Shown piece by piece: positions 9,385-60,200 of a DNA stretch of 64,000 nt (positions are counted from its first letter, which is position 1; each line of letters opens with the position of its first letter). A model generated the notes under the pieces. That model worked only from the letters and a program-made list of their open reading frames with translations. It did no database searches and was not told the origin of the DNA. The stretch comes from an uncultured Methanobrevibacter sp. (GTDB lineage Archaea; Methanobacteriota; Methanobacteria; Methanobacteriales; Methanobacteriaceae), in contig NZ_CADCJB010000009.1 of NCBI RefSeq assembly GCF_902801725.1, positions 1 through 64,000 of the forward strand, written 5' to 3'. Made by a program: the position numbers and the translations under genes.

Positions 9385-9467
9385 TTCCTTTCTCACCTCC
9401 GTTAAGACCCTATTATAAAACAACGAAACAAATTAGGGAATAAATCATGATTAATTATCTTCCTCAT

Positions 9468-36231: not shown

Positions 36232-36243
36232 CATTCGAATAGT

Positions 36244-36265: not shown

Positions 36266-36287
36266 TTTAAAATAAGGAGACAAAAAA

Positions 36288-37358: not shown

Positions 37359-37370
37359 ACACGATAAGTT

Positions 37371-37412
37371 AAATTGTTGATTTTTATCAACAATTTTTAA
37401 CTTATTTTTTAA
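37371..37412 (+). terminator. Terminator of hmd
   Basis: AAATTGTTGAT (37371-37381) pairs perfectly with ATCAACAATTT (37386-37396), loop TTTT, followed by T-rich sequence to 37412. It begins 13 bp after the hmd stop and separates highly expressed hmd from the hcg genes. Confidence 0.7.
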
Positions 37413-37486
37413 TTGTTACCCGTTAGCCATTAAAAAATAAGTTAATTTTATATTAAAGATAAAAAAAATTAAAGCCTGGTGTTAAC

Positions 37487-38485
37487 TTGATTGATGAAAT
37501 TTTAAATAGAGCAAAACAAGGACAAGAATTAAGCGATGAGGAATTTTTAGAATTGTTGAATATCGATAATGATGAAGATTTGGAAAAATTGTTCAAGACA
37601 GCTTGCGATATAAGAGATAATCAATCAAAAGTAATCAAATTAACATCAACAGTCCACCTTACAAACAAATGCCAAATCCAACCTAGATGTGAATATTGCG
37701 GATTTGCAGAAGAAACATCTGAAAAAGGATATTATAATGCATTTTATAAATCAAATGAAGAAATATTGAATGCAGTAAAATCCATTCAAGAGGCTCACAT
37801 TCCCCGCGTGAGCTGTTCTGGAGGGTATGGATACAAAGGAAAACAGGCAGTAAATGCCTGCAGAATTGTAAAGGGACATTCCGATTTGGAAATTCTTGTA
37901 AATGTTGGTGGAGATTTAACCGAAAAATCCGTGCAGGAGTTAGGCGAACTGGGCGCAGATACAATTTGCTGCAACTTGGAAACTATAAATGAAGACGTGT
38001 TCTATCAAAGAAAACCTGGAGACTCACTGGATCAAAGAATACTAACTTGCAAAAGAGTGAGCGATGCGGGAATCGGTCTCTCATCAGGACTGCTTTTAGG
38101 CCTTGGTGAAACCAAGGAAGACAGGATAAAACACCTGCGTTACTTATCCAACTTCAGAACCCTGGAAGAAATTCCAATTATGGGATTTAATCCATATGAA
38201 GGCACTCCAATGGAAAATCATCCTGCATTTCCATTAAAAGAACAGCTGAAAATGGTTGCCATTACAAGAATAATGTATCCCGAAATCACAATCACAATGC
38301 CCACACCAACTGTAGGCCCTGAAAATGTGGAATTTTCATTGAAAGCGGGTGCAAACAACTTGGCTACAGTAATAGCTGACAATTATCCTCATGAGGTTAA
38401 AGGAGTAGGTTCTCCCGAATACGGAAATTATACAGAAGTCGTCAATGTCATTGAAAAATTGGATTTGATACCTCAAACTATTTAA
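37487..38485 (+). CDS. hcgA: Radical SAM protein HcgA
   Basis: HcgA is a BioB-like radical SAM enzyme thought to help form the pyridinol ring of the FeGP cofactor. The 332-residue protein has the unusual CX5CX2C cluster motif of HcgA in 'CQIQPRCEYCGFAEETSEKG', not CX3CX2C. TIM-barrel parts follow: 'SCSGGYGYKGKQAVNACRIV', 'GADTICCNLETINEDVF' and 'LSSGLLLGLGETKEDRIKHL'. The start is a TTG (37487) with GGTG 6 nt upstream; no better start lies nearby. It opens the hcgA-hcgF operon, downstream of the hmd terminator. Confidence 0.93.
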   Translation: MIDEILNRAKQGQELSDEEFLELLNIDNDEDLEKLFKTACDIRDNQSKVIKLTSTVHLTNKCQIQPRCEYCGFAEETSEKGYYNAFYKSNEEILNAVKSIQEAHIPRVSCSGGYGYKGKQAVNACRIVKGHSDLEILVNVGGDLTEKSVQELGELGADTICCNLETINEDVFYQRKPGDSLDQRILTCKRVSDAGIGLSSGLLLGLGETKEDRIKHLRYLSNFRTLEEIPIMGFNPYEGTPMENHPAFPLKEQLKMVAITRIMYPEITITMPTPTVGPENVEFSLKAGANNLATVIADNYPHEVKGVGSPEYGNYTEVVNVIEKLDLIPQTI

Positions 38486-38509
38486 TCACTTTTTTTAATA
38501 TATGATAAT

Positions 38510-38992
38510 ATGGCATTTGAAAAGATGATAAGAAATGCATTTGAAGAATCCGAAAACGACTGCAGATTTGGAGATACTCTAGAGGAAATTGCAGAAATTC
38601 AGGATTACATAAAAAATGCTGAAAAGATATGCATACCCAATAAAAATGGAATTAAAGTTGAAGTATTGAATAGGGTTTTAAATGAATACGAACTGCCTCA
38701 AGCTGAAATACTTCAAATCAACACAAATACCGCAGATACCAGCAGAATTCCAGCACTGTCAAAGGCATATATGGCACTTGACCAAAGCGATGCAGATTTG
38801 ATAATAGCCAGAGGACGTTTAGGAATTCCGGGTTCCGGATCACTGCTTATTTTTATAGACAGCAAGGGAAGAATACTTACTGCAGGAACTTCCCCCTCAC
38901 ATGCAATTCACAAAAAGACAATTGAAGAAGCAGTTTATGAAGAAGCATGTGAAGCCCTTGAAAAGATTGGTTTTAAAAAAATTGAAGGTTAA
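38510..38992 (+). CDS. hcgB: FeGP cofactor guanylyltransferase HcgB
   Basis: HcgB joins GTP-derived GMP to the pyridinol to give guanylylpyridinol, a precursor of the Hmd cofactor. The 160-residue protein matches the HcgB family with 'ALSKAYMALDQSDADLIIAR', 'GRLGIPGSGSLLIFID' and 'ILTAGTSPSHAIHKKTIEEA'. Length is normal. It lies 24 bp after hcgA and 3 bp before hcgC. Confidence 0.93.
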   Translation: MAFEKMIRNAFEESENDCRFGDTLEEIAEIQDYIKNAEKICIPNKNGIKVEVLNRVLNEYELPQAEILQINTNTADTSRIPALSKAYMALDQSDADLIIARGRLGIPGSGSLLIFIDSKGRILTAGTSPSHAIHKKTIEEAVYEEACEALEKIGFKKIEG

Positions 38993-38995
38993 AAC

Positions 38996-39781
38996 ATGGA
39001 TATCGATACTGGAATAACATCTGAAGTACTTACAATTAAATCTGAAACCAAACTAATTGATATATTTAATGAAATTATTTCAAAAAAGTCAGAAGCTGTT
39101 TTCAACTACATTGAAAGTTTAAATTTTTCCTTAGATGCCAAAATAATTGTTATCGGAACATATTTTACAGGAGTAGGAATTGTTAAAAAATTAAGCAAAA
39201 AATATGAAAACATATTATTGATTGATATCTATCCTCATTTGGAAGGCTTGCTTTATACAGATGTTGGAGGTGAGCTAAAAAACAATGTTGATTTTTCATC
39301 CGACCTCGATTTAATCTATTCCGGAGATGTTGTAATTGACACAACAGGTTTTGGTGGCATCAATGTTGAGCAGTCCTCAAAATTTGATGTTGATGCATTC
39401 ATAATAGAAGATCCGATTGCTGAAGACAATGATATCCTTTTGAAGGATAAAAACAACATTGACGAAAGATTAAGTGCAGTCAAATCCCCAAATAAGGCAA
39501 TAATAAAAACCGAAGGTATAAATACGAAAACATCCGGAACAATGACATTGACAATAGGCCTTTTGACAAAAGTTTTGAACAGATGCCTTGAAAAGGAAGG
39601 TACTCTATATAGCGCATGTGAAATGGGCTTTTTTGAAGAGGTCATTTTTAAAGAAAAAGATATTGATAAATTTATTGAACTTGCAAATGCAAATGCCCTG
39701 AAGGTGTCCACAATCAGACCGTTCAATTGCGATGACATCATCAGTGAAGAGCTGAATAAAATTACCTCAAGAATGATTTAA
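38996..39781 (+). CDS. hcgC: SAM-dependent pyridinol C3-methyltransferase HcgC
   Basis: HcgC methylates C3 of the pyridinol ring during FeGP synthesis. The 261-residue protein has a Rossmann-like part: 'AKIIVIGTYFTGVGIVKKLS' for SAM binding, 'LLIDIYPHLEGLLYT' and 'VVIDTTGFGGINVEQSS'. A C-terminal region with 'TKTSGTMTLTIGLLTKVLNR' follows. The stop codon directly abuts the ATG of hcgD, implying coupled translation. Confidence 0.92.
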   Translation: MDIDTGITSEVLTIKSETKLIDIFNEIISKKSEAVFNYIESLNFSLDAKIIVIGTYFTGVGIVKKLSKKYENILLIDIYPHLEGLLYTDVGGELKNNVDFSSDLDLIYSGDVVIDTTGFGGINVEQSSKFDVDAFIIEDPIAEDNDILLKDKNNIDERLSAVKSPNKAIIKTEGINTKTSGTMTLTIGLLTKVLNRCLEKEGTLYSACEMGFFEEVIFKEKDIDKFIELANANALKVSTIRPFNCDDIISEELNKITSRMI

Positions 39782-40480
39782 ATGAAACTTAAAGAAATAA
39801 TTGACTTTTTGGAAGAGAAAATTCCTAAATCCTTGGCTTTGGAAAATGATGAAATCGGATTTAAAAAAGATTATGATTTATCACTGAATATTGAATTAAT
39901 TAAGCTCTATATGGATTTACTGCCCGAAGATGATGATAACAGCGAAAATACTTTGATAATAACCCATCATTCACCATTATTCATTCCAAAAACACCGACT
40001 TACACAATACATTCAAATTGGGATATAACAGATGGCGGTGCAAATGATGCATTGGCAAAAGCACTAGATTTGGAGGTTATTAGTTATTTTGATGACAATA
40101 CAAATATCGGAAGAATCTGTAAAACAAATCAGAAGTTCATTGAACTGCAAAATAATATTTTAAACAATTTCAACCATGTGCGAATCGTAAATAGCTTAGA
40201 TGATGAAAAGACAATAGGAAAAGTTGGAATCGTATCCGGTTTTGGTTTAAAAAACCCAGATTATATAAAATTAGCCAAAGCAAAAAATTTAGATATTTTA
40301 ATATCAGGAGACATGACGCAGGAAACTGCAATTCTTGCCAAAAATTTAAAAATTACATTGATTGACCTAACCCACCATGAAAGCGAAGTTCCGGGATTGT
40401 ATGCTCTTGAAGACCTCTTAAAAGAACTTGATATTAATACTGAAGTTATCGACAAAAACCCTATAGAAGTGATAAAATGA
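39782..40480 (+). CDS. hcgD: NIF3-like protein HcgD (iron handling for FeGP cofactor)
   Basis: HcgD is a NIF3-family di-iron protein proposed to deliver iron to the cofactor. The 232-residue protein has the NIF3 metal motifs 'LIITHHSPLFIPKTPTYTIH' (His pair), 'IHSNWDITDGGANDALAKAL' (the H..D.....N.L signature) and 'LIDLTHHESEVPGLYALEDL' near the C-terminus (His and Glu ligands). The start directly follows the hcgC stop, and the end overlaps hcgE by 4 bp. Confidence 0.92.
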   Translation: MKLKEIIDFLEEKIPKSLALENDEIGFKKDYDLSLNIELIKLYMDLLPEDDDNSENTLIITHHSPLFIPKTPTYTIHSNWDITDGGANDALAKALDLEVISYFDDNTNIGRICKTNQKFIELQNNILNNFNHVRIVNSLDDEKTIGKVGIVSGFGLKNPDYIKLAKAKNLDILISGDMTQETAILAKNLKITLIDLTHHESEVPGLYALEDLLKELDINTEVIDKNPIEVIK

Positions 40481-41127
40481 CAAATGACGAAATCAAAAAA
40501 ATGGAAGACAGACAAGTCCCTCACGGCAGGATTGACTTAATTGGATGCGGAAGATTAGGTTTGAGAATTGGAATAAACCTAATGCAGGTTCACAGAGGTG
40601 GGCCAAGAACAATAGGTGCTTTTGACGGTCAGAAAGTAGATGGAGGAGATGTAATTTTTACACTTCTTGGAGCTGAAATAGGTCAAAACAAACCTGATTT
40701 CATTAAACAGCTATGCACCCACAAAAAAGAATTCAGAGAAGTTTTAAGCTATCCGGAATATATTACAGAGGAAAATACAGATTTGATTGAGGGAGATGTT
40801 GTAATCATTGTCATCGCTGGCGGAAATACCATACCTACCGCAGCCAAAATAATAAAGCATGCACATGAAAGAGGGGCGAAGACCATTGGAACAGCAGGAA
40901 TATTCGGATATGGAAATGAAAATATTGAAATCAAAGACATTTCAGAATATGATGACACCAATCCCGCTGTTGAAGAGTTAAGAAAACAGGGAATAACAGA
41001 AAATCATTTGCTTTTAACAACAAACAAATTCATAAGAGATGGAGAACCTATAACACCATATACTTTAGATGAAGTTGCAAATACCATTACAATGAATGCA
41101 TTGAAGTTATTGGATGATAAACTATGA
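40477..41127 (+). CDS. hcgE: ThiF/E1-like adenylyltransferase HcgE
   Basis: HcgE adenylates the carboxyl group of guanylylpyridinol so that HcgF can take it over as a thioester. The 216-residue protein has the E1-like nucleotide fold ('GRIDLIGCGRLGLRIGINLM', 'IGAFDGQKVDGGDVIFTLLG', 'DVVIIVIAGGNTIPTAAKII'). It overlaps hcgD by 4 bp and hcgF by 4 bp (ATGA junctions). Confidence 0.92.
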   Translation: MTNDEIKKMEDRQVPHGRIDLIGCGRLGLRIGINLMQVHRGGPRTIGAFDGQKVDGGDVIFTLLGAEIGQNKPDFIKQLCTHKKEFREVLSYPEYITEENTDLIEGDVVIIVIAGGNTIPTAAKIIKHAHERGAKTIGTAGIFGYGNENIEIKDISEYDDTNPAVEELRKQGITENHLLLTTNKFIRDGEPITPYTLDEVANTITMNALKLLDDKL

Positions 41128-41699
41128 TCAAAATAGCAACAGCAGAATGTTTTACACAAGGCAAAATTGGAAGGGAACTGCATGCACTGGCTCAAAGTTA
41201 TGAAGGAATCTTTGGATTAGAATACATTGAAAACATAGAAGAATATGGTGATTTCGATTATAATGACCTTAGCGTAACCTGCAGCTTATTTATTCCAACA
41301 ATTGAAGCCATGGAAAAGGTATTGAATGTTGAAAATCCCCCAAAACCAGATAAGCTAATCAAAGGCATAAAGGTTTATGATGAAGCAGGAGATAAGGCCG
41401 TGAGTAAAATTATGGCAAAAGCTGTAAAGGAATTGAGCGGTTGTGACATAGCCATTGGAACAACAGCAGGCATTGGACATGGTGGAATATCAATAATAAC
41501 AGACAACTACGAAATTACGACAACAACAGATATTTATGCAGATTTATGTGAAAAGGACAGCGAAAAATTATTTCAGCGTAGCGAAAATGGAATTGAAAAA
41601 ACATTAGAAATACTATTGCTGCTTCTAAATAACAAGTTTAACCAGATAAAATCTTTTAAAAATGTAGAAATAAAAAAATTAGAAAAATTTAATATTTAG
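41124..41699 (+). CDS. hcgF: HcgF, thioester-forming enzyme of FeGP synthesis
   Basis: HcgF binds guanylylpyridinol covalently as a thioester. The critical Cys9 of the family is present in 'MIKIATAECFTQGKIGREL'. Other conserved parts are 'VTCSLFIPTIEAMEKVL', 'DIAIGTTAGIGHGGISIITD' and 'YEITTTTDIYADL'. The 191-residue length is close to normal, with an extra Lys/Asn-rich tail. It is the last gene of the hcgA-F operon. Confidence 0.92.
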   Translation: MIKIATAECFTQGKIGRELHALAQSYEGIFGLEYIENIEEYGDFDYNDLSVTCSLFIPTIEAMEKVLNVENPPKPDKLIKGIKVYDEAGDKAVSKIMAKAVKELSGCDIAIGTTAGIGHGGISIITDNYEITTTTDIYADLCEKDSEKLFQRSENGIEKTLEILLLLLNNKFNQIKSFKNVEIKKLEKFNI

Positions 41700-42513: not shown

Positions 42514-45500
42514 ATGGTCGACAGAAATATAAATTATAACAGATATTTTTTAAGGCAAATCAATGATTTTGACGAATCTACAATGCTTAATCCCGATTTA
42601 ACAGGTAATGAAAAAATTAAATTAAATAAAAATGAATTAAAAATAAAAAATAATAAAATTAAAGAATTTTGCAAAGAAAATTCAATTAGCGAAAATATAC
42701 TTTTTTTAGCAAGCACATTAACAACTTTGAATAAATTTAATTTCTCCAATAAAAATCTAATTTTCCATGAAAACAATATAATCTTTACAACAAAATTTGA
42801 AAACAGGAAAATAACAATTAGAGACTACCTAATTCAAATCCAAAACGATTATCTGGAAAATTTAAAATATTGCGAATTTTCAACTGATAAAATAATTGAT
42901 GAATATGACTTAAAGACCGAATTCTATTATGCCTTCAATAAAGACCTAAATCTCAATTCATTCAAACGCGAATATAATTTTTACCTGAACATTCAAAAAA
43001 CAGCCGAAGAGTTCGTATTATCCTCCCATTACAATGACCAGTTATACTCCAATGAATACATCAATCTCTTCTTGAAAAGCATCGCCACAATCATAAACCA
43101 AATTCTGTCAATCGACACTTCAAAATCAACCTTATCAGACATCACACTTATTAAAAAAGAAGAAAGCAAGGAATTTAAGGAAGTGGAAATTCCATTCATC
43201 CACAAGCGCTTTGAAAAGCAAGTTGAAGCAAATCCTGACCACACAGCACTCATATCAAACGGCGAAAGATTAACCTACAGCGAAATTAATAAAAAATCCA
43301 ACAAAATCGCCAATGCACTTATCAAAAAGGGTGTAAAACCTAAAAGCAATGTTTTGGTAATGCTTCCAAGAAACAGCAATTTGATTGCATCAATTATGGG
43401 TATTCTAAAAGCAGGTTGCACCTACATTCCGATTGATCCGTCATATCCAAAAGAAAGAATAGAATACATTTACAAAAACAGCAAAGCGGATTACATAATT
43501 ACCGACCGTGATTTAGAAGATTCAATCAATATCAGTGAATTACTCAAAGAAGAAAACAGCGAAAACCCTGACGTTAACATCAAACCTGACGATTTAGCTT
43601 ATGTCATTTATACATCAGGTTCTACTGGAAATCCTAAAGGAGTGATGGGAAGCCATAAAAATATCACAAGTGTGTTTTCAAAAGATGAAAACAATGAAAT
43701 CTATAATGAATACGTGAAAATGAACAGGAATCTTGGAATTTCTACAGTATCATTTGTTGCATTTTTAGTCGATTTCATGAGCCTTACATTTGGAACCACA
43801 TTAATACTTGCCAATGACAATGAAATAGAAAACATAGAATCATTGACCCGACTGATAGAAAGTGAAAAACCTGATGCCATTACTTTTACAACTCCCTCAC
43901 GTCTTAAACAATCTCTGGAGTATGAATCATTCACAAAAGAGCTTTCATCAATAAACTACATCACCATTGGTGGAGAAATGGTGACAATGGATGTCCTATC
44001 CAAATTACCATGTGATAAAACAAATGTTTATATTGGTTATGGGTCTACAGAAACCACAGGATTTGCAACATTGGAAAAAATAACCAATCCAAACAATGAT
44101 TTGACTATTGGAAAATCCGTTCATAATGCAATATCCGATGTTAGAGACATTGACGGGAAAATAGTGCCTCAGGGAGTGATGGGTGAACTCTATATCGGGG
44201 GAAACGGAATTGCAAAAGGATATTATAACTTAGATGACGAGTCAAATGAATCATTCCTAACCATAAACAGAATACCATACTATAAAACCGGAGATTATGC
44301 AATAGAAACCCCCGACGGCAAAATTGAATTAAAAGGAAGAATAGACAATCAAATCAAACTCAGGGGATTGAGAATAGAAATCAGAGAAGTAGAATCAAAC
44401 ATTTCAAAATATCCAAATATAAATGAAAACATCGTTGTGATTAAAAAAATCAACAACGAAGACCATCTGTGCACATACTTCACCTCCGAAAAGAAGATCA
44501 ACTCCAATGAACTAAAAGAATTCTTAAAAGAAAGATTAACAAAATATATGATTCCAACTGTGTTTATGCAACTGGACGAACTGCCAAAAACACCAAATGG
44601 AAAAATAAGCATCAGAGAACTTCCAAAACCAAAACTTAATTTGGAATTGGTTCCGCCGCAGAGTGAAACGGAAAAAACATTATTCAAAATAGCTTCATCC
44701 ATTTCAGAAATCACCGAATTCGGTGTAACTGACGATTTATATGCAATCGGATTTACCTCATTAACATTCATGAAACTTAATGCCGCAATCTATAATGAAA
44801 CAGGCATTAATTTAAACATTTCAAAATTAATCGACAATCCAACAATCAAAAACATTGCAAATCAAATTGAAAATACAAAATCCGGCGATTTAGATAAGAT
44901 TATGGAGGATGCTAAAAACGCAATGTATATTCCATTGACCGCAAATCAATTGGGAGTATACTACGAATGCGCTCAAAAACCCGACGAACCGCAGTACAAC
45001 CTTCCAAGTCTAATCAAATTTGACAAAACTGTTGATGGTGAAATATTAAGAGAGGCAATCATCAAAACTATCGATGCCTACCCTTACCTTAAAACCAGAA
45101 TCGTCATGCATGGTGACCAGCTAATGCATAAGCGTGATGATTCAATAGCAATCGATGACATACCGATTGTTGAAGTGCCATCCATCAGCGATGAGGAAAT
45201 TCAAAAACTCAATACCGAAAGATTCGACCTGTTAGGAGGCCAACTGTTCAGAGCAAAAATTTATGTAACTGATGATGAAATCATATTGTTCTTTGACATT
45301 CATCACCTGATAACAGACGGTGAATCCATCGACAGACTATTCAGAAACTTTGCTTATGCTTATGAAGGCAAAGAGATTGAAAGTGAAATTTTTGACGGAT
45401 ATGTCAATGCATTGCTTGAAGCGGAAAATGAAAACAGTGCGGAATACATAGCTTCTGAAAGATATTTCCATGAGCTACTGACACAGGAAGTTGACTCAAC

Positions 45501-48500
45501 AGTTCTGACACCTGATTTAAATGGAAATGAAGAAGAGGGTGAATTGGTGTCAATATCCAAAAATATCAATCCAAAGCTGATTAGAGAATTCTGTGCCAAT
45601 GAAAGAATAAGTCCTAACGTATTATTCATGGCAAGTACCGTATTGAACCTGAACAAGTACACATTTTCAGACAAATCCTTAATAACAACCATATTCAATG
45701 GCAGATCAAGCCCAAATTACTTCAATACACAGGGCTTTTTAGTCAAAACATTGCCTTTGCTGTCCATCAATGAAGATAGAGACATTACCGTTAAGCAGTT
45801 TTTAACTCAAATTGATGGAATATGGAAAGAAACAATACAGCATGCAGATTATCCGTATATTAAAATTGCCGAAGAGTTTCAACTAAAACCTGAATTCATG
45901 TACACCTACAATAATCGTGATGAGCAGGTTATCACCGTAAACGGTAATGAATATCCGTATATTCATTTAGAAACCCAACAGACAGATTATAAAGTCACTT
46001 TTGACATTAATGAAAGTAAAGACAATATTGAATTATCCATACTGTACAACAATCAGCTATACAGTGAAAAATACATTAAAGTATTCCTGAACAGTGTTTT
46101 GAGCATTATAACTCAGTTCATTAATGACGATACCGGAAATTTAAGTATCAGTGAAATTGAACTGAACAGGAATTATGAAATACCTGAATTCACTCCTGTG
46201 GAAAATCCGTTTATCCACAAGCGCTTTGAAAAGCAAGTTGAATCAAATCCTAAAGGAATTGCACTTGTTGCAGAAGATGCCACATTAACCAATGAGGAAC
46301 TTAATCAAAAGGCAAACAAAATTGCAAACGCATTAATCAAAAAAGGAGTCAAGCCAAAAAGCAATGTCCTTGTAATGCTTCACAGAAACAGCGATTTAAT
46401 AGCATCAATATTAGGTATACTGAAAGCAGGAAGCACATACATTCCAATAGACCTTGAATATCCTCAGGACAGAATCAATTATATTTATGAAAACAGTCAG
46501 GCGGACTACATCATTTCCGAAGAGGATAAAGAAAACGCCTTAAATATCAAGGAACTTCTCAAGGAAACAAATACCAAAACTCCTGATGTTGAAATCACGC
46601 CGGATGACTTGGCCTATATGATTTACACCTCAGGTTCAACCGGAAATCCGAAAGGAGTAATGATTTCACATGAAAACATCTGTAATGAAGTGGAAAACCC
46701 AAAATCACAATATGAAAGCTTACTATGTATTGCAACAATTTCTTTCGATGTGGCAATGGATGATATTTTCGTAGCGCTTGCAAACGGAATAAAACTCATA
46801 TTTGCAAACGATTCACAAATCAAAATCATTCCTGAATTGACTAAACTAATAAATGAACATAAACCGGAAGTTGCTGAGTTCACACCATCCAGACTGGCAT
46901 CACATCTTGAAGTGGATGAATTCTGTGAAGCAATACGCTGCCTTAAATGTTTATTCCTTGGAGGAGAGCAGTTTTCAACCAAAGTATACGAGAACTTCAG
47001 AAAACACTCTGATGCAATCGTATACAACAGTTACGGACCAACAGAAACCACAATTACATCAAACAACAAGGAAGTCACAGATGTCAACGACATAACAGTC
47101 GGATATCCACTATACAACTACGTCACAGACGTGCGTGATATCGATGGAAAACTCCTGCCTTACGGAGTAATGGGAGAGCTATACATTGGAGGCGTTGGTG
47201 TAGGTAAAGGATACTACAACATGCCGGATAAAACCGAAGAAGTGTTCCTGACCATCAATAACATCCCATACTACAGAAGCGGAGACTATGCAATCTCAAG
47301 GCCGGACGGTGAAATAGAACTCCTTGGAAGAATCGACAATCAAATCAAATTAAGGGGATTGAGGATAGAAATTGGAGAAATCGAGTCCAACATTAACAGA
47401 TTCCCTTCTGTAAAACAGGCTGTTGTCGTAATCAGGGAAATCAACAATAACGATCATTTATGTGCATATTATACTGCTGACGATGAAATTGATACATTCG
47501 AATTAAAAGACTTCCTTAAAGACAAGTTAACCAAGTATATGATACCTACTGCATATATGCAGCTTGATGAAATGCCACAAACACCAAACGGAAAGACAGA
47601 CATAAAAGCATTGCCTAAACCGAAATTGGACCTGGAATATGTGGAAGCTGAAAACGAAACCGAACAAATACTCTTCAAAATCGCATCAGAGCTTGTAAAT
47701 ACTAATAAGTTCGGTGTAACAGATGACTTATATGCAATCGGATTTACATCACTGATATTGATGAAATTCAACTCATTAATCTATACAGAAACAGGAGTTA
47801 ATATAGACATTTCACAATTATTCGACGATCCAACCATCAGAAAGCTCGCATTGCAAATAAAAGAGGGCTACGACAGGCTAGATTTAGAAGAATTTACCAA
47901 ATTAGCAGACAAACTGGAATACTTCCCATTAACTGACAATCAGTTGGGAGTATACTATGAATGCATGCAAAGTCCAGATGAAATAAAATACACGATGCCA
48001 ACAGTCTTAAGACTTGACAGTACAGTAGATGCAGAAAAATTGAAAAAATCCATAATCAAAGCCGTGGAAGCCCACCCATACATCAAAACCAGAATCATAA
48101 CCACAGATGACGGTTCACTGAAACAATATAAAAACAATGAAGCCGACATAGACGAAATCGAAATCGTTAAAGTCGATTCAATAACAGACGATGAAATCAT
48201 CAAAAATGACGTGAAAGCGTTTAATTTTGGTGATGAACAATTATTCAGATTCAAGATATACGAAACAGCCTGTGAAACAGTACTGTTTAGTGACTTCCAC
48301 CACATTATAACAGACGGTGAGTCACAAATCAACTTCTTTACAGATGTTGCAAACGAATATGAAAACAAAGACATGTCAGAAGAGATTGTAGACGGCTATA
48401 TATACAGCCTCATTGAAGATGATGCTAAAAACAGTGAAATATACGAAAAATCCAAGGAATTCTTTGATGAAAAGCTCTCACAGGATATCGAATCAACAGT

Positions 48501-51500
48501 TCTCACACCAAACCTTAATGGAAACCCGGATGAGGGTGAACTGAAAACTGTCATCCAAAAAATCAATCCGAAAAACATTAAGGAGTTCTGTAATGATTAT
48601 TCATTGAGTCAAAATGCGTTGTTTCTGTCTGCACTCGCATTGACATTGAATAAGTTCACATTCAGCGATAAGACACTGATAACAACAATCTTCAATGGAA
48701 GGTCCAACCCATATTATTACAATACACAAGGATTTCTTGTTAAAACACTTCCATTAATATTCCGCAGCAAAAACAGAAAAGCTACTATAAAAGAATTCAT
48801 CAGAGGCATTGATGAAATATGGAAAGAAACAATAAAGCATAGTGGATACCCATATACTACCCTTGCTGAAGAATACCAATTAAAACCAGAATTTTTCTTC
48901 TCATATCAGGAATTCCTTAAATCGGAAGAAGTAACAATAAACGACAAGGCTTATGAAGGATATGAATTAAGTTCTGATGACATTTCAGCAACTGCATATA
49001 AAATTAATTTAGATATTTTCGCATATGAAGACAACATCAAATTCAAATTAGATTATAACGACCAGTTGTATAGTAAAGATTACATCCAAAAATTCCTTGA
49101 TTCACTTAAACTTGTCTTAAACCAATTCATTAAAAGTGACATTGACAAGTTAATGATTAATGAAATAGAACTGGAAAGTGAATCAGAATTAGTTGAATTT
49201 ACTCCTGTAAAAAACCCATTAATCCATAAACGCTTTGAAAAACAAGTTGAAAGCATACCTGACGAAATTGCACTGGTTTCAAATGAAGAAAAATACACTT
49301 ACAGAAAATTGAATGAATTAAGTAACAGGGTTGCCAACGCCTTGATTAAACGTGGAGTTGAGCCAAGAAATAATGTTTTAGTAATGCTTCCAAGAAACAG
49401 CGATATGATAGCAGCAATACTCGGTGTCTTAAAAGCAGGATGCGCATACATCCCAATAGATCTGGAATATCCTAAGGAAAGGATTGATTACATCTATGAA
49501 AACAGTCAGTCAGACTACATCATATCCAATGAAACTTATGACAACTCATTAGACATCAAAGAACTGCTTGAAGAGGAAAACATCAAAAATCCGGATGTTG
49601 AAATTACACCGAATGACTTAGCGTATATGATTTACACATCAGGATCAACCGGAAATCCAAAAGGAGTAATGATATCACACAAAAACATTTGTAACCAAGT
49701 TCAAAATCCAAAATCACAATACGAAAGCCTGCTCTGTCTTGCAACAGTATCATTCGATGTATCTGTAGACGACATGCTAACATCCCTTTCAAACGGACTG
49801 AAACTTATTCTTGCAAGTGACACTCAAATCAAAAACATTCCAAAATTAATAGAGCTAATCGAAAGCGAAAAACCGGAAGTATCCGAAATTACACCTTCAA
49901 GACTTGCATCATATCTGGAAGTGCCTGAATTTTGCGAAGTAATCGGCTGCTTAAAATGCCTATTCCTCGGAGGAGAGCAGTTCTCAACCAATGTATATGA
50001 AAACTTCAGAAAACACTCTGATGCAATCGTATACAACAGTTACGGACCAACAGAAACTACAATTACCTCAAATAATAAGGAAATCACCGATGTTAATGAT
50101 ATAACTGTAGGTTTGCCATTAGAGAACTATATAACTGATGTGCGCGATATTGACGGTAAACTCTTGCCGCAGGGAGTAATGGGAGAACTGTACATCGGAG
50201 GCGTCAGCGTAGGTAAAGGATATTACAACATGCCGGACAAAACCGAAGAGGTATTCATGACCATCAACAACATTCCGTACTACAGAAGCGGAGACTACGC
50301 AATAGAAAAACCGAACGCTGAAATCGACATCAAAGGAAGAATAGACAATCAAATCAAACTCAGAGGATTGAGAATAGAAATCGGAGAAATTGAAGCTAAC
50401 ATTACCCGATTCCCTAAAATTAAAAATACTGCTGTTGTAATCAAAAAAATCAACAACAGCGAACATCTATGCGCTTACTTTACTGGAGAGGAAGATATCG
50501 ACATTAATCTCCTTAAACGTTACCTGCAAAACAAGCTGACCAAATATATGGTTCCAACAGTTTTCATGCAGATTGATGAAATGCCTCAAACACCGAACGG
50601 TAAAACAGACATCAAGGCATTGCCTGAACCTTCATTGGCGCTTAATTTTGTTGAACCTGAGACAGAAACCGAGAAAAAGATATTCAAGCTCGTTTCATCA
50701 CTTACAAGTGCAGATGAATTCGGTATTACAGACGACTTGTACGCTTTAGGATTCACATCACTAACGCTGATGAAATTAAATTCAATGATTTACAACGTGA
50801 CTGACGTAAACATTGAGATAACAGATTTATTCAACAATCCGACAATCCAAAGCCTTGCAGATAAGGTTGACAACAACATAGACACCCAGATTGACATTCC
50901 AGAAATCATCAAGACTGCAGAAACAATGGATCTGTTCCCGCTGACATCCAACCAGTTAGGAATCTACTATGAATGTAAGCAAACCGAAGAAATCAAGTAC
51001 ACAATTCCTTCCTGCATACGCTTTGGCAGTGATATTGACGCATACAGACTTAAACAGGCAATAATAGATACTGTTGAAGCGCATCCATATCTTAAAACAA
51101 GAATAATTACCACCCCCAATGGTGAATTGAGACAGAAAAGATGTGACGATGCTGAAATTGATGAAATTGAAATCGTGGAAATTGACTCCATTTCAAATAA
51201 AGAGATGATGGATAAAGACGTCCAATTCATTCCGATTGAAGATAATCAGCTGTTCAGATTCAAGATTTACAAGACTCCAGATGAAACAGTGCTTTTCACA
51301 GATATTCACCACATCATAACTGATGGAGTATCACAGGACCTTCTTTTCAAAGACATGCTGCAGGCTTACAATCATGAAGAAATCGATAAAGAAACTGTAG
51401 ACGGATATGCTTATAGCCTAATTGAAGCTGAACTCGGCGAAAATGAAGTTTCAAAAGAGTATTACAAAAAGAGGTTTGCTCAAGGATTCGAATCCACCGT

Positions 51501-54500
51501 ACTTACTCCAAACATAAACGGAAATCCGGATGAAGGCAAAATCAAACTTATCGGCGACAGAATCGACTCCCACTTCGTAAGACACTTCTGTCAAGACCAT
51601 TCCATAAGTCCAAATGTTCTCTTCATGAGCGCTACAATCCTAGCACTTAACAAGTTTACATTCTCCGACAAGGCACTGATAACTACAATCTTCAACGGAA
51701 GATCCAACTCCAACTACTACAATACTCAGGGAATGCTTGTAAAAACACTCCCAATCATGGTAGGCAGCGAAAACAGGTCAATGATGGTTGAAGACTTCAT
51801 CAAAGTGGTCGACAAATCATGGAAAGATGCGCTGGTACACAGCAACTACCCCTACACCACACTTTCCGAGGAATATCAATTGAAACCGGAATTCTTCTAT
51901 GCATATCACGGAGCGTTTGAAACCGATAGTTTGGAAATGGGAGGAAATAAATACGCCATGGAAGAGCTTGACGGAACCGTGGCAACAGACTACAAGCTCA
52001 ATTTAGACATTTATGATGATGGAGACGACATTGGAATTTTAATTGAGTACAATGACCAAATCTATACTAAAGACTATGCCAAAGACTTTTTAAACGCAAT
52101 AAAATACATATTGGTTCAATTCTTCGTAAACGATATGGACAAATTAAGAATTGAAGATATTGAGCTTGCAACCAACATGATTCCAGTTGAATTTGAAGAA
52201 GTAATCAATCCATTCCTCCACAAGCGTTTCGAAGCGCAAGCGAAAGAAAAACCTGATGAAATCGCACTTGTTGCAACTGACAAAATACTGTCATATGATG
52301 AGCTCAACAAAAAGTCAAACCGCATAGCAAATGCGCTTATCAAAAAAGGTGTGAAACCTAGAAGCAACATATTGATAATGCTTCCCCGTAACAGTGACCT
52401 GATTGCTTCAATAATCGGTGTATTAAAAGCAGGTTGTGCCTTCATACCACTCGATTTAAAGTTCCCTAAAGAAAGGATTGACTACGATGGCCTTGACCTA
52501 AATTCACTATCCGTTAAAGAATTGCTTGAAGAGAACAATACAGACAACACAAATATTGAACTTGATCCTGATGATTTGGCATACATGATTTACACATCAG
52601 GTTCAACAGGAAATCCTAAAGGAGTGATGATTTCACACGAAAACATCTGTAACGAAGTGGAAAACCCAAAAGCACAATACAAAAGCATATTATGCATTAC
52701 AACAATTGCCTTTGACGTTGCTATGGAGGACATATTTACATCACTTACACATGGAATCAAACTGGTATTTGCAAACGATTCACAAATCAAAAACATACCT
52801 GAACTAACAGAACTAATCAAGGAACACAAACCAGAAGTAGCTGACTTTACACCATCCAGAATGGCTTCACACCTCGAAGCGGATGAATTCTGTGAAGCAA
52901 TAAGCTGCCTGAAATGCCTATTCCTTGGAGGAGAGCAGTTCTCAACCAAAGTATATGAAAACTTCAAAAAACACTCCGACGCTGTTGTATACAATGGTTA
53001 CGGACCAACAGAAACCACAATCACATCAAACATTAAAGAAGTCACAGATGTCAATGACATAACCGTCGGATACCCAATGTACAACTATATAACTGACGTG
53101 CGCGATATTGACGGGAAACTCCTGCCTTACGGAGTAATGGGAGAGCTATACATTGGAGGAGTCGGTGTAGGAAAAGGATACTACAATATGCCGGACAAAA
53201 CCGAAGAAGTATTCATGACCATTAATGATATCCCATACTACAGAAGCGGAGACTATGCAATCTCAAGACCGGACGGTGAAATAGAACTTTACGGAAGAAT
53301 CGACAATCAAATCAAACTCAGAGGACTGAGAATAGAAATCGGAGAAATCGAATCCAACATATCCAACTTCCCAAAAATAAAACAGGGCATTGTCGTAATC
53401 AAGAAAATCAGAAACAACGAGCATCTGTGCGCATACTTCACCTCAGAAGAGGAAATCGACAAGGATGCACTCAAGGAATACCTAAGCGAAAGACTTACAC
53501 AGTACATGGTTCCGACCGTTTTCATGCAGATTGAAGAGATGCCGCAAACTCCTAACGGAAAAACAGATGTAAAAGCATTGCCTGAACCTAAACTTGAACT
53601 TACATACGTCCCTCCTAAAAACAAGCTCGAGCAAACAATCTGTGCAATATACTCCTCCATCCTCGACATAGAAATCGTCGGTGCAGAGGATAACTTCTTT
53701 GAAATAGGAGGAACATCACTTATCGCATCAAAACTAATCATTGAATTACTTAAACAGGATTATGACGTGAAATATGACGATGTTTTCAGAAACCAAACTC
53801 CAAGAAAACTGGCAAGCTTCCTTTCAGGAGATGAAATCTCAGATGACCTGAACGTTGAAATCATTGAAAACTATGACTATACCAAAATCAACAAGCTTCT
53901 TGAGAAAAACACCTTTGAAAACTTTGCAAAAGGTACAAACCAAGAGTTGGGTAACGTACTGCTTACTGGAGTAACCGGTTTCCTAGGTATCCACGTATTA
54001 TATGAATACATCAAAAATGAAGAGGGAACAATCTACTGTATGCTAAGAAAAGACCAGTTCGATACCTGCGAAGAGCATTTAATAGATTTGATGAACCACT
54101 ACTTCGATGAGGACTTAACTGACCTTATCGGATCAAGGATAATCCTAAGCGAAGGAGACATAACAAATCTGGATGACTTCAAGAAGCTTGAAGACTATCC
54201 AATTGATACAATAATCAATTGTGCAGCCATAGTAAAACACTATACACACGATGACTACATTTTCAGAGTTAATGTCGATGGAGTAATCAACGGACTTGAA
54301 TTCGCTGATGTAAACGACATCACATATGTTCAGATATCCACAGTCAGCGTATTGAACGAATATACAGAAGATGCAGACATTAATGATGTGCACTGCGATG
54401 AAAAGACACTGTACTGGGGACAAGACCTGTCCAACAAATACCTGAAGAGTAAGTTTTTAGCAGAAAGAATGGTACTTGAAAAGGCATTAAACGGCCTTAA

Positions 54501-55065
54501 TGTAAAAATAATAAGGGTAGGAAACCTTATGGGGCGTCAAAGTGATGGAACATTCCAGAAAAACTTTGATACGAATGCATTCCTAAACACTATAAGAGCC
54601 ATTAAAAACATCAAGGCAACTATGCCTGCCTTATCTCAAGAAATTACTGAATTAAGCCCAATCGATTATGTGGCAAAGGCAACACTTGAACTTGCAAAAG
54701 CACCGAAAGAAAATACAGTATTCCATGCCTTCAGCGATAAGGCGATACCACTCAGAGACATAATTAATGTTCTCAACTCATTCGGATTCGGCATTGAAGA
54801 AGTCACACCTGAGGAGTTCAGAAAAATCTATGAAAAGAACATGGACGAAAACATTCAAGGAATGATTACTGCTGAGTTAAACATTGATGACTTTGCTGAA
54901 GACAATAAAGAAACAGAAGATGTTGAAAGTGATGTCTACGAAATTGTAATGAAGGAGCAAACATTGGAAATCCTTAAAACATTTGGATTCAGCTGGCCTG
55001 AATGCGACAAAGAGTATCTTACAAGAATAATCAGACATCTGGTTGAAGTGAATTATTTTGATTAG
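42514..55065 (+). CDS. Four-module non-ribosomal peptide synthetase with terminal reductase
   Basis: The 4183-residue enzyme should assemble a four-unit peptide-like product. Order: residues 1-222, only the second half of a condensation domain; A1 (~223-715), T1 (Ser749 in GFTSL); C2 (~804-1225, HHLITDG at 930), A2 (~1229-1710), T2 (Ser1746); C3 (HHIITDG at 1929), A3 (~2232-2710), T3 (Ser2749); C4 (HHIITDG at 2932), A4 (~3230-3700), T4 (Ser3735 in GGTSL); reductase from ~3812 ('LLTGVTGFLGIH', Tyr3976/Lys3980 in YLKSK). All A domains have YTSGSTGNPKGVM and a final PNGK lysine. A2 and A3 pockets look the same. A1 has Val where Asp235 (GrsA numbering) is expected. A4 lacks ~13 residues before its core A3 motif. 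Release should be reductive. M. ruminantium has a similar four-module/reductase NRPS; product unknown. Confidence 0.95.
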   Translation: MVDRNINYNRYFLRQINDFDESTMLNPDLTGNEKIKLNKNELKIKNNKIKEFCKENSISENILFLASTLTTLNKFNFSNKNLIFHENNIIFTTKFENRKITIRDYLIQIQNDYLENLKYCEFSTDKIIDEYDLKTEFYYAFNKDLNLNSFKREYNFYLNIQKTAEEFVLSSHYNDQLYSNEYINLFLKSIATIINQILSIDTSKSTLSDITLIKKEESKEFKEVEIPFIHKRFEKQVEANPDHTALISNGERLTYSEINKKSNKIANALIKKGVKPKSNVLVMLPRNSNLIASIMGILKAGCTYIPIDPSYPKERIEYIYKNSKADYIITDRDLEDSINISELLKEENSENPDVNIKPDDLAYVIYTSGSTGNPKGVMGSHKNITSVFSKDENNEIYNEYVKMNRNLGISTVSFVAFLVDFMSLTFGTTLILANDNEIENIESLTRLIESEKPDAITFTTPSRLKQSLEYESFTKELSSINYITIGGEMVTMDVLSKLPCDKTNVYIGYGSTETTGFATLEKITNPNNDLTIGKSVHNAISDVRDIDGKIVPQGVMGELYIGGNGIAKGYYNLDDESNESFLTINRIPYYKTGDYAIETPDGKIELKGRIDNQIKLRGLRIEIREVESNISKYPNINENIVVIKKINNEDHLCTYFTSEKKINSNELKEFLKERLTKYMIPTVFMQLDELPKTPNGKISIRELPKPKLNLELVPPQSETEKTLFKIASSISEITEFGVTDDLYAIGFTSLTFMKLNAAIYNETGINLNISKLIDNPTIKNIANQIENTKSGDLDKIMEDAKNAMYIPLTANQLGVYYECAQKPDEPQYNLPSLIKFDKTVDGEILREAIIKTIDAYPYLKTRIVMHGDQLMHKRDDSIAIDDIPIVEVPSISDEEIQKLNTERFDLLGGQLFRAKIYVTDDEIILFFDIHHLITDGESIDRLFRNFAYAYEGKEIESEIFDGYVNALLEAENENSAEYIASERYFHELLTQEVDSTVLTPDLNGNEEEGELVSISKNINPKLIREFCANERISPNVLFMASTVLNLNKYTFSDKSLITTIFNGRSSPNYFNTQGFLVKTLPLLSINEDRDITVKQFLTQIDGIWKETIQHADYPYIKIAEEFQLKPEFMYTYNNRDEQVITVNGNEYPYIHLETQQTDYKVTFDINESKDNIELSILYNNQLYSEKYIKVFLNSVLSIITQFINDDTGNLSISEIELNRNYEIPEFTPVENPFIHKRFEKQVESNPKGIALVAEDATLTNEELNQKANKIANALIKKGVKPKSNVLVMLHRNSDLIASILGILKAGSTYIPIDLEYPQDRINYIYENSQADYIISEEDKENALNIKELLKETNTKTPDVEITPDDLAYMIYTSGSTGNPKGVMISHENICNEVENPKSQYESLLCIATISFDVAMDDIFVALANGIKLIFANDSQIKIIPELTKLINEHKPEVAEFTPSRLASHLEVDEFCEAIRCLKCLFLGGEQFSTKVYENFRKHSDAIVYNSYGPTETTITSNNKEVTDVNDITVGYPLYNYVTDVRDIDGKLLPYGVMGELYIGGVGVGKGYYNMPDKTEEVFLTINNIPYYRSGDYAISRPDGEIELLGRIDNQIKLRGLRIEIGEIESNINRFPSVKQAVVVIREINNNDHLCAYYTADDEIDTFELKDFLKDKLTKYMIPTAYMQLDEMPQTPNGKTDIKALPKPKLDLEYVEAENETEQILFKIASELVNTNKFGVTDDLYAIGFTSLILMKFNSLIYTETGVNIDISQLFDDPTIRKLALQIKEGYDRLDLEEFTKLADKLEYFPLTDNQLGVYYECMQSPDEIKYTMPTVLRLDSTVDAEKLKKSIIKAVEAHPYIKTRIITTDDGSLKQYKNNEADIDEIEIVKVDSITDDEIIKNDVKAFNFGDEQLFRFKIYETACETVLFSDFHHIITDGESQINFFTDVANEYENKDMSEEIVDGYIYSLIEDDAKNSEIYEKSKEFFDEKLSQDIESTVLTPNLNGNPDEGELKTVIQKINPKNIKEFCNDYSLSQNALFLSALALTLNKFTFSDKTLITTIFNGRSNPYYYNTQGFLVKTLPLIFRSKNRKATIKEFIRGIDEIWKETIKHSGYPYTTLAEEYQLKPEFFFSYQEFLKSEEVTINDKAYEGYELSSDDISATAYKINLDIFAYEDNIKFKLDYNDQLYSKDYIQKFLDSLKLVLNQFIKSDIDKLMINEIELESESELVEFTPVKNPLIHKRFEKQVESIPDEIALVSNEEKYTYRKLNELSNRVANALIKRGVEPRNNVLVMLPRNSDMIAAILGVLKAGCAYIPIDLEYPKERIDYIYENSQSDYIISNETYDNSLDIKELLEEENIKNPDVEITPNDLAYMIYTSGSTGNPKGVMISHKNICNQVQNPKSQYESLLCLATVSFDVSVDDMLTSLSNGLKLILASDTQIKNIPKLIELIESEKPEVSEITPSRLASYLEVPEFCEVIGCLKCLFLGGEQFSTNVYENFRKHSDAIVYNSYGPTETTITSNNKEITDVNDITVGLPLENYITDVRDIDGKLLPQGVMGELYIGGVSVGKGYYNMPDKTEEVFMTINNIPYYRSGDYAIEKPNAEIDIKGRIDNQIKLRGLRIEIGEIEANITRFPKIKNTAVVIKKINNSEHLCAYFTGEEDIDINLLKRYLQNKLTKYMVPTVFMQIDEMPQTPNGKTDIKALPEPSLALNFVEPETETEKKIFKLVSSLTSADEFGITDDLYALGFTSLTLMKLNSMIYNVTDVNIEITDLFNNPTIQSLADKVDNNIDTQIDIPEIIKTAETMDLFPLTSNQLGIYYECKQTEEIKYTIPSCIRFGSDIDAYRLKQAIIDTVEAHPYLKTRIITTPNGELRQKRCDDAEIDEIEIVEIDSISNKEMMDKDVQFIPIEDNQLFRFKIYKTPDETVLFTDIHHIITDGVSQDLLFKDMLQAYNHEEIDKETVDGYAYSLIEAELGENEVSKEYYKKRFAQGFESTVLTPNINGNPDEGKIKLIGDRIDSHFVRHFCQDHSISPNVLFMSATILALNKFTFSDKALITTIFNGRSNSNYYNTQGMLVKTLPIMVGSENRSMMVEDFIKVVDKSWKDALVHSNYPYTTLSEEYQLKPEFFYAYHGAFETDSLEMGGNKYAMEELDGTVATDYKLNLDIYDDGDDIGILIEYNDQIYTKDYAKDFLNAIKYILVQFFVNDMDKLRIEDIELATNMIPVEFEEVINPFLHKRFEAQAKEKPDEIALVATDKILSYDELNKKSNRIANALIKKGVKPRSNILIMLPRNSDLIASIIGVLKAGCAFIPLDLKFPKERIDYDGLDLNSLSVKELLEENNTDNTNIELDPDDLAYMIYTSGSTGNPKGVMISHENICNEVENPKAQYKSILCITTIAFDVAMEDIFTSLTHGIKLVFANDSQIKNIPELTELIKEHKPEVADFTPSRMASHLEADEFCEAISCLKCLFLGGEQFSTKVYENFKKHSDAVVYNGYGPTETTITSNIKEVTDVNDITVGYPMYNYITDVRDIDGKLLPYGVMGELYIGGVGVGKGYYNMPDKTEEVFMTINDIPYYRSGDYAISRPDGEIELYGRIDNQIKLRGLRIEIGEIESNISNFPKIKQGIVVIKKIRNNEHLCAYFTSEEEIDKDALKEYLSERLTQYMVPTVFMQIEEMPQTPNGKTDVKALPEPKLELTYVPPKNKLEQTICAIYSSILDIEIVGAEDNFFEIGGTSLIASKLIIELLKQDYDVKYDDVFRNQTPRKLASFLSGDEISDDLNVEIIENYDYTKINKLLEKNTFENFAKGTNQELGNVLLTGVTGFLGIHVLYEYIKNEEGTIYCMLRKDQFDTCEEHLIDLMNHYFDEDLTDLIGSRIILSEGDITNLDDFKKLEDYPIDTIINCAAIVKHYTHDDYIFRVNVDGVINGLEFADVNDITYVQISTVSVLNEYTEDADINDVHCDEKTLYWGQDLSNKYLKSKFLAERMVLEKALNGLNVKIIRVGNLMGRQSDGTFQKNFDTNAFLNTIRAIKNIKATMPALSQEITELSPIDYVAKATLELAKAPKENTVFHAFSDKAIPLRDIINVLNSFGFGIEEVTPEEFRKIYEKNMDENIQGMITAELNIDDFAEDNKETEDVESDVYEIVMKEQTLEILKTFGFSWPECDKEYLTRIIRHLVEVNYFD

Positions 55066-55946: not shown

Positions 55947-56834
55947 ATGTCAAAAAGATCAGAAATAATAGAAACTATTCTCGAGAAAAAACACCGCGAA
56001 TATATTGATGATGCCTCCAAGGCAGACGAATATATGCAAGAACGTTCCCTTGAAGAAGACGAAGAATACAAAATTCCAAAAATGATATATCATACAAAAG
56101 TTGAAAGCAAAGACATGTTCGGATGCCAAATGGTTACATTTAATGATGTTGAAAATACAGAGCGTCTGATCATATATCTTCACGGAGGAATATATGTAAA
56201 CGAAATCAGACAACCTCACATTTCCTTTTGCGACAAACTCGCAAAAAAGGTTAATGCATGCATATTTACTCCAATATACCCTCTTGCTCCAAACCACACC
56301 TATGAAGAAACATATGAAATTGTTGAAAAGTTATATGCCCATCTGCTAACAATCAAAAAGCCCATCACAATTATGGGAGATTCAGCCGGAGGCGGATTGA
56401 CTGCAGCATTCTGCGAATATTTGGGGAATAATAACCTGCCCCAGCCAAATAACATAATTCTAATATCACCATGGGTTGACGTATCAATGTCCGGAAATTA
56501 TGACGACGTTGAATATGATCCTATGCTTGGAGTGGACGGCGCCCGCGAAATGGGAAAATCATGGGCAGGAGACCTGGATCCGAAAGACTATAAGGTAAGT
56601 CCATTGTTTGGAGAAGTGAGCAAACTCCCAAAAACTACGATATTCATTGGAACTCATGAAATAATATATTCAGACGTTGTCAAATTTCATGACAAGCTAA
56701 AGGATAACGGCGTTGATGTTGAATTGAATGTCGGAGAAAAAATGAGCCACGTTTATCCGCTTTATCCAATGGTTCCAGAAGCAAAAGAAGCATTTAATCA
56801 CATTGTTGAAATACTTCTTGGCCAATCAAAGTAA
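55947..56834 (+). CDS. Alpha/beta-hydrolase, hormone-sensitive-lipase type esterase
   Basis: The 295-residue protein has the HSL-family oxyanion motif 'LIIYLHGGIYVNEIRQPH' (HGG) and nucleophile elbow 'ITIMGDSAGGGLTAAFCEYL' (Ser146). The acid is probably in 'TIFIGTHEIIYSDV' and the His in 'GEKMSHVYPLYPM'. It should hydrolyse short-chain esters; feruloyl-esterase activity is reported for relatives in M. ruminantium, but the substrate here is unknown. It follows the NRPS on the same strand, 880 bp away, with a separate promoter region and an intervening minus-strand gene. A tailoring role in the NRPS pathway is speculative. Confidence 0.85.
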   Translation: MSKRSEIIETILEKKHREYIDDASKADEYMQERSLEEDEEYKIPKMIYHTKVESKDMFGCQMVTFNDVENTERLIIYLHGGIYVNEIRQPHISFCDKLAKKVNACIFTPIYPLAPNHTYEETYEIVEKLYAHLLTIKKPITIMGDSAGGGLTAAFCEYLGNNNLPQPNNIILISPWVDVSMSGNYDDVEYDPMLGVDGAREMGKSWAGDLDPKDYKVSPLFGEVSKLPKTTIFIGTHEIIYSDVVKFHDKLKDNGVDVELNVGEKMSHVYPLYPMVPEAKEAFNHIVEILLGQSK

Positions 56835-57235: not shown

Positions 57236-60200
57236 TTGAAATTATATAAAATAACTATTATTATATTGTTCGTGTTTATTTTTTCAATAGGTGCCGTTTC
57301 AAGCCAGGATGCAAATCAAACTGCAGATTTGGATATTGGAACAGATGTAGAATTGGAATCAGGAAATCCTGATTTAGTTTCGACTTCAACAGGCACATTT
57401 ATTGATTTGAACGCAAGCATATCACAAAGCAGTGCGAAGATGGATATCGATCAGGATTATGCCTATGATATCAAAAAAGACAAAGCTCTCTCAAGCATTG
57501 AGATAACTAATAAAAATTTATCAATTAATGGTAATAACCATATCATAGACGGTAATGGCCTAACAAGAATTTTTACAGTCGATTCTTCAAACGTTGTAAT
57601 GAACAATCTGATTATTAAAAATGCAAATCGGTCAGCCATTTTCATTAAAAATTCAACATTAATAACAAACAATGTTACCTTTGAAAACAATCTTGCCGTA
57701 GGCGGCGGTGCAATTTGTGGAGTATCATCCATTTACAACAGCAGTGGTGATAGGTTTATCAATAATTATGCCAAATACGGCTCTTCAATTTACCTAGCAG
57801 ATAGAAGTGAATTATATCTTAACGATGGAACTTTTAAAAATGATGATTACTTCGATTGGAGTTTAATATATTTGAATTCTTGTACAGTTGATATACAGAA
57901 CTCTGCTTTTTATAATTTAACATCAAATTATTGCCCTGCACTGTATATTGGAGAGTGTGAAGGTAGAATTAAAAATTCCAAATTTGTTAATTTGCACGCG
58001 AATAAGACAGCGGGTGCTGTAGCTTTAAAAAAGATTTTCAAAGAATTTTCCATTGAGGATTGTGAATTTATAAATGCCACCAGCGAAAAGAATGGGGGTG
58101 CAATTTATGCCGACATAAATGGAGATGGAGACTTGCCACGGGGAAACCTGAATATTGTCAATTCCCGTTTTGAAGATTGCACTTCTGAATTTGGTGGTGC
58201 CGTTGTTCAATTAGGAGGACTTTTAAATATAAACAATACAAATTTCACTTCAAATATTGCTGATTATGATGGAGGAGCTGTTTATACTTCAAATTCTTAT
58301 GTTAGTATCGATAATTCCAGTTTTATTTCAAATAAAGGTTTAACAGATGGATTTTCAAATGGTGGTGCAATATTTAATGATAAAGGATCATTAGAATTAA
58401 TTGGCTGTACTCTTGAAAATAATGTGGCAAGCAATGCATCTTCAATTTACAGCTATGAATCAGAATTAACCCTGAATGAATGCCACTTTAACAACCCAAC
58501 TGTAAACAGCACCAGCATCTGCATGGTATTTGGCAATGGATATTCACAAAATGGAACCGATTTCAACAATGATGTCCTATCCTTAAACAACACATATTTT
58601 GAAACAAATGTAAAGAGTTCTCAAAAACCGTTTGTTATTATCAACAATACAATCCATTATGATAAACTGCCGGAAAGGTTTGATTTGAGGGATTACAATT
58701 GGGTATCCCCAGTTAAAAAACAAGGGGATATGGGTGCCTGTTGGGCATTCGGTAATGTTGCCGCATTAGAATCATCATTGATGCGATACCTGAATATCAC
58801 CTATGACTTTTCCGAGAACAATGTGCAAAATTCAATGCTGAAATATTCAAAATATGGCGTTTCCACTATTACAGAAGGGGGAGACTTATATACTGCAGTA
58901 GGATATCTGCTTAGTTGGCTTGGAATATCACCTACAGAATACGATAGCTATGATGAATTGGGCAAAATTTCACCGATTATATCTTCACCCAATGATGTCC
59001 ACATATTCGATGCGGTTTTTGTCCCTGCAAGAAATAATGTAACAGATAATTATTTAATCAAAAAGGCAATTATTGATTATGGCGCTTTAGCCGTTTCATG
59101 CTTTGCAGTTGAGGATGGAATCTATTTCAATACAAACACTTCTGCACAGTACATAAATGAATCCTCAACCGAAAATCATAAGGTTTGTGTGGTCGGTTGG
59201 GATGACAATTACTCCAAGGATAATTTTGCAATCACACCGCCAGGTGACGGCGCATGGATTATCAAAAACAGCTGGGGCAGCGAATGGGGAGACAAAGGCT
59301 ACTTCTACATATCCTATTATGATGGAAGTTTTGCATCCAAAAAAGAACTTACCGGTTATATTATTAAGAATGACATCAATTATGACATGATTTATCAGCA
59401 CGATATCGGCGGAGATTTAGTGTTGCTAGATGCGAATTATTATATGAACAAGTATATTGCAGAAGAAGATGCCCTAATTGCTGCTGTCGGAACTTATTTC
59501 GACAGTTCTAACTTAAACTACGAATTCTCAGTTTTCGTCAATGATGTTGAAGTATATACTCATAAAGGCGCAAGTGAATTCAGAGGATATTCTACAATAC
59601 CATTAAACAAATTCATAAAAATCAAAAAAGGAGATGCCTTTAAAGTCATATTTAAGAATAAGGCCCCTGCATTAACTGACGGCAGGACACCTATTGACAA
59701 GGACGTGACATTCCAAAGTGATGACGGAAAAACATGGGAGGATTTATCCAACACCCAACGCGTAGCGGTTTTAAAAGTTTACACAATTCCTGATTTGAAT
59801 ATCGCTGACGATCTGGTCAAATATTACGGTGATGATACTCCATATACTGCTAACGTTCAGCCTGGCGACAAAGTGATATTTGAAATCAACGGCATTACTG
59901 CAACAGTAACAGCGGATGAAAATGGAAGTGCAGAACTTGGCATTGATTTAAAACCCGGCACATACTATATAAAAGTGAATTACAATGGAACCAAGTATCC
60001 TTTCAATGTTATAATCAAAAGCACAATCTCATCTCAGGATGCAACCAGAGGCTATAACAGCAACTACAACCATAAAATCCAATTGCTTGATAAAAAAGGC
60101 AATGCCTTAAACAATACTGCAATTACTGTGACCGTCAATGGCAAAACTAGCAAATATACAACTGACAGCAACGGTTTTGTCACCATAAAATTTACTAAAT

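Follow-up and report, generated by a model that had tools for sequence, protein, structure and literature searches.

A described counterpart of the locus analysed here is mru_0351 of Methanobrevibacter ruminantium M1 (PMC2812497), a non-ribosomal peptide synthetase (NRPS) with a half-condensation domain (half-C), four modules and a terminal reductase (R). It is expressed in culture, at 10.17 log2 counts per million reads, and lauric acid raises its expression by 1.06 log2 (PMC5816558). A PCP-R structure from M. ruminantium M1 has been determined (6VTJ, PMC8097023), large NRPS genes have been noted in M. millerae (PMC4987999), and 687 NRPS clusters have been counted in 125 archaeal genomes (PMC8241843). 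A terminal reductase of the same type is present in the aureusimine synthetase AusA (NCBIfam NF047350, PDB 4f6c), and R domains in general perform two-electron release (PMC7586950). Methanogen NRPS genes are common in ruminant-gut Methanobrevibacter, yet no product of any of them is reported in the literature consulted, in line with what the first-pass annotation had said of the M. ruminantium-type enzyme.

The window, that is, the whole 64,000-nt stretch of DNA analysed, comes from a short-read draft genome of 2.16 Mb in 83 contigs. It contains a single forward-strand ORF with an ATG start (42514–55065) that spans a whole NRPS gene of 4183 aa, hereafter N1, whose four-module form is seen in this one assembly. 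Pfam searches match AMP-binding, Condensation, PP-binding, AMP-binding_C and a terminal NAD_binding_4, with E-values to 1e-295, and the domain order is half-C, A1-T1, C2-A2-T2, C3-A3-T3, C4-A4-T4, R, just as the first-pass annotation had described for a single protein of this length. The loading module is headed by the half-C (42538–43149, aa 9–212), a condensation C-terminal lobe without HHxxxDG, followed by the starter adenylation domain A1 (43174–44652) and the carrier T1 (44647–44871, motif IGFTSL). The three extension modules comprise C2 (44926–46173, HHLITDG), A2 (46189–47643) and T2 (47644–47883); C3 (47920–49176, HHIITDG), A3 (49198–50652) and T3 (50653–50880); and C4 (50935–52173, HHIITDG), A4 (52195–53610) and T4 (53611–53817, IGGTSL), with carrier motifs likewise in T2 and T3. 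The thioester reductase R (53884–55062) closes the protein.

There are exactly three HHxxxDG motifs (aa 930, 1929 and 2932) and four carrier serine motifs (aa 745, 1742, 2745 and 3731), and the reductase holds TGVTGFLG (aa 3818; TGxTGFLG type) and YLKSK (aa 3976; YxxxK type), so that none of these motifs is degraded and the earlier description of them as intact is borne out. Each of the four A domains has the core motifs A3, A7, A8 and A10; A2–A4 also have a canonical A5 motif, which in A1 reads GYGSTE. N1 thus combines, across repeated modules, the condensation, adenylation and carrier signatures of a modular NRPS, and the genome encodes one ACPS-family PPTase match (PF01648, G000:C4:26810-27040). 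The best explanation, to which we assign a probability of roughly 60%, is that N1 is a complete NRPS derived from longer assembly lines, which would join a starter lacking an alpha-amino group to three basic residues and release the chain as an aldehyde.

Purifying selection is evident in each domain of N1 that was compared, with dN/dS of 0.12–0.16 in the half-C and 0.05–0.11 in the other domains. The half-C, which matches the C-terminal part of N1's own C domains, is conserved in the family (42–77% identity across 13 relatives). Its predicted structure (pLDDT 78, pTM 0.81) matches condensation domains in the PDB, including TycC5-6 PCP-C and SrfA-C, with a TM-score of about 0.6–0.74 on the query.

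Two features were absent from the first-pass annotation: A1 lacks Asp235, and A4 lacks 13 residues, 'IYENSQADYIINV', that every homologous terminal A domain examined contains. The corresponding 39-nt gap starts directly after a 99-nt exact repeat (52387–52485, forward strand) that is common to N1 and a paralog, N3 (C16:3692); across about 134 kb of this genome that were compared, no exact same-strand repeat is longer than 99 nt. A frameshift and a duplication in N3 also lie at the ends of 99-nt exact repeats (L011 18809 and L013 3790; window 52485 in N1). Because the gap and the N3 defects all fall at such ends, we read the gap as a limit of the assembler, probably an error that has cost N1 about 13 codons, and we set a real deletion aside. 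Were the deletion real, it would disable A4, and N1 would be a decaying copy that has lost its exporter and makes no tetrapeptide. Such decay is compatible with the conservation of the missing residues in relatives, with the lack of any MATE exporter or MATE remnant in the window, and with a real remnant in the neighbouring paralog family of another genome; it is made unlikely by the placement of the gap exactly at the end of a 99-nt repeat, a kind of position where the N3 defects also fall, and by the low dN/dS everywhere in N1. The remnant in question, in genome G004, is a 294-aa stub of a half-C NRPS (L071 9874-10758), apparently left over from a lost synthetase.

To read the adenylation codes, all A domains were aligned to what we take to be the GrsA core sequence, and the alignment reproduced the published code DAWTIAAICK. 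The code of A1 is VAVTTGGGFK, without the Asp235 that binds the alpha-amino group (PMC11355689), as is characteristic of domains for substrates that have no such group. In relatives (N2-type and two-module enzymes excluded), 11 of 24 first modules are without Asp235, as against 0 of 87 extension modules; 73 of these 87 carry an acidic residue at both 239 and 278, which makes their pockets of the type that takes basic residues. These observations suggest that A1 takes a starter without an alpha-amino group; that this might be a deamino aromatic acid is a guess, prompted by the likeness between the sister starter code, DALTAGIVIK, and the tyrosine code of TycC, DALTTGEVVK.

A2 and A3 share the code DVDEFGSITK, which over its first eight positions (DVDEFGSI) agrees at six with the ornithine code DVGEIGSI. 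The code of A4, DVEDFGGITK (DVEDFGGI), is farther from ornithine, and we found no close published match to it; in the terminal modules of relatives the code is DTEEVGSIAK, and the recurrent DTEEVGSI is nearest to lysine and ornithine codes. With the codes of these archaeal domains read against bacterial ones, and with no distinction drawn between Lys, Orn, Arg and Dab, A2–A4 are suggested to take three basic, ornithine- or lysine-like residues. The earlier prediction of a four-unit product accordingly stands as to the four modules and needs qualifying as to the units, the first of which is probably no alpha-amino acid, while the other three look basic.

The R domain of N1 has 6VTJ, reportedly the M. 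ruminantium M1 R domain structure of Deshpande et al. (2021), as its best PDB match, followed by AusA and, behind it, MxaA. Outside archaea, it scores 138 bits to AusA and 69 bits to the alcohol-forming MxaA. Because of this ranking, release as an aldehyde appears likelier than release as an alcohol; of the aldehyde or alcohol originally proposed, the aldehyde-type reductase is retained and the alcohol becomes the less likely outcome. N1 as a whole differs from AusA in having four modules rather than two, and its score of 1902.6 bits to the AusA equivalog model NF047350 lies below the curated cut-off of 2500.

An alternative for the chemistry would be a tetrapeptide that begins with an ordinary alpha-amino acid and leaves the enzyme as a primary alcohol, given that some R domains are known to carry out a four-electron reduction and that exceptions to the Asp235 rule exist; the restriction of Asp235 loss to first modules and the far closer relationship of R to AusA than to MxaA nevertheless make it improbable. 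Under the preferred reading of a non-alpha-amino starter and aldehyde release, A1 would load T1 with a carboxylic acid that has no alpha-amino group, tentatively a deamino acid related to an aromatic amino acid, and C2–C4 would add three ornithine- or lysine-like residues without epimerisation. With NAD(P)H, the AusA-like R domain would then free an N-capped tri-basic peptide aldehyde, whose side-chain amine may allow it to cyclise; that the product is secreted, or that it inhibits proteases or serves as a competitor or signal molecule, is a guess. A capped polybasic peptide aldehyde would be a sufficiently specific prediction for a defined mass-spectrometry search and for A-domain assays, and the product class could reveal how methanogens act on rumen neighbours or on proteases.

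In trees of both the half-C and the R domain, N1 groups with long synthetases from three genomes (G003, G008 and G016; 7–8 modules where complete), apart from the mru_0351 type, with support of 90 in the half-C tree and 95–99 in the R tree. Long Methanobrevibacter lines of 7212–8206 aa (G005, G008, G010 and G016) share with N1 the start M[VI]DxNxNY, the half-C, the R clade and basic extension codes; they differ in having 6–8 modules instead of four, another terminal A core, and a MATE gene next to the 3' end, where N1 has none.

Sliding-window identity to the module classes of relatives shows N1 to be a mosaic. Module 2 is of the module-2 type; C3 is of the module-3 type (0.75–0.83 vs 0.44–0.75 for the penultimate class); the A3 flanks are of the penultimate type, as are the C-terminal part of A3 and T3 (0.88–0.90); and module 4 is of the terminal type in C4 and T4, with an exchanged A4 core. 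The cores of A3 and A4 are closer to other modules than to their own class. Because the classes switch between C3 and A3 and again at the A3 and A4 cores, the simplest reading, inferred from one draft genome, is that N1 descends from long (6–8-module) Methanobrevibacter lines by internal module loss, with a crossover approximately in the C3–A3 linker (49177–49197), and by A-core exchange. N1 belongs to a kind of enzyme that these archaea were already known to have, but seems to be a shortened and re-spliced derivative of longer relatives. As in the A-core exchange described for bacterial NRPSs, in an account where archaea are unmentioned (PMC8097286), the core seems to have been replaced while the A-sub/T interface stayed native, whereas in N1 the module number has changed too, with a junction in a C–A linker; module loss with A-core exchange would thus extend a bacterial mode of NRPS evolution to archaea.

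N1 might instead be an assembly chimera, either of 5' and 3' parts of different synthetases, with the tails of N1 and N3 swapped at the 99-nt repeat, or through the collapse of middle modules; the sharing of that repeat in A4 and the short-read draft assembly speak for it. The head (half-C) and the tail (R) of N1 are, however, both most identical to the same genome, G003, the N3 tail branches elsewhere, and no exact repeat of at least 70 nt lies at the C3–A3 junction, all of which renders a chimera quite improbable. That N1 is an ordinary mru_0351 ortholog making the same product is rejected as highly implausible, despite an identical layout of half-C, four modules and R, nearly equal lengths (4183 vs 4187 aa) and a homologous R domain about 69% identical by eye in alignment to 6VTJ, since its half-C is only 42% identical to the mru_0351 type as against 75–77% to long-line members, both trees part the groups, the codes differ at modules 1 (the starter), 3 and 4, and the MATE gene adjoining mru_0351-type genes is absent. 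The likeness to the M. ruminantium enzyme that had been pointed out earlier consequently holds for architecture and fails for orthology. For this comparison, genome G085 was inferred to be M. ruminantium M1 because its 4187-aa NRPS has a MATE gene behind it and an R domain that scores very highly against 6VTJ.

A broader and more tentative proposal, which we hold as a possibility rather than an expectation, is that ruminant methanogens may carry a fast-recombining NRPS family whose products are polybasic peptide aldehydes of 4 to 8 units with varying caps. Module loss and A-core exchange would alter the cap, the length and the residues, and N1 would be a newly shortened member of the family.

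NRPS genes are common in this lineage. Condensation domains occur in 47 of 67 genus genomes, which, with the published archaeal cluster count, contradicts the initial remark that NRPSs are rare in archaea as far as this lineage is concerned. A scan of genome contigs for bacterial half-C relatives, with patterns specific enough that a bacterial donor might escape them, returned 21 loci, all in Methanobrevibacter or Methanosphaera records. The named records are MAGs of these two genera, several with ruminant labels (goat ileum, roe deer rectum, water buffalo reticulum). Almost all loci for which the 3' end was retrieved have a MATE gene after the NRPS. In the genome of N1, a second synthetase, N2, lies about 14 kb downstream on the same contig (C9:68839-81681, reverse strand; 4280 aa; half-C, four modules and R) with an adjoining MATE gene, and N3, split over contigs C31 and C16, is followed by two. 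These tandem MATE genes (L013 6354-8033 and 8088-9767) stand out from the single gene of most relatives, and one of them may serve N1, which has none of its own.

Upstream of N1 is an hmd/hcg FeGP-cofactor cluster (34413–41699; Hmd and genes for a fibrillarin-family protein, a radical SAM protein, HcgB, HcgC, a DUF34/NIF3 protein and HcgF), which is unrelated to the synthetase. Downstream are a 186-aa ORF without an assigned function and an alpha/beta hydrolase (55947–56834), rejected as a cluster enzyme; it looks generic, with homologs spread over 48 of the 67 genus genomes, some of which have no condensation domains. Farther downstream, a papain-family cysteine protease of 1187 aa that bears lectin-like and Ig-like domains (57236–60799, forward strand) lies near the predicted peptide-aldehyde synthetase, any link between the two being speculative. 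Elsewhere in the window, a 344-aa molybdopterin oxidoreductase ORF (31535–32569, reverse strand) sits beside an FrhB/FdhB-type subunit and seems short for the alpha subunit of a formate dehydrogenase, and a 2607-aa surface-protein-like ORF (1600–9423, reverse strand) carries DUF11, DUF7507 and Ig-like domains.
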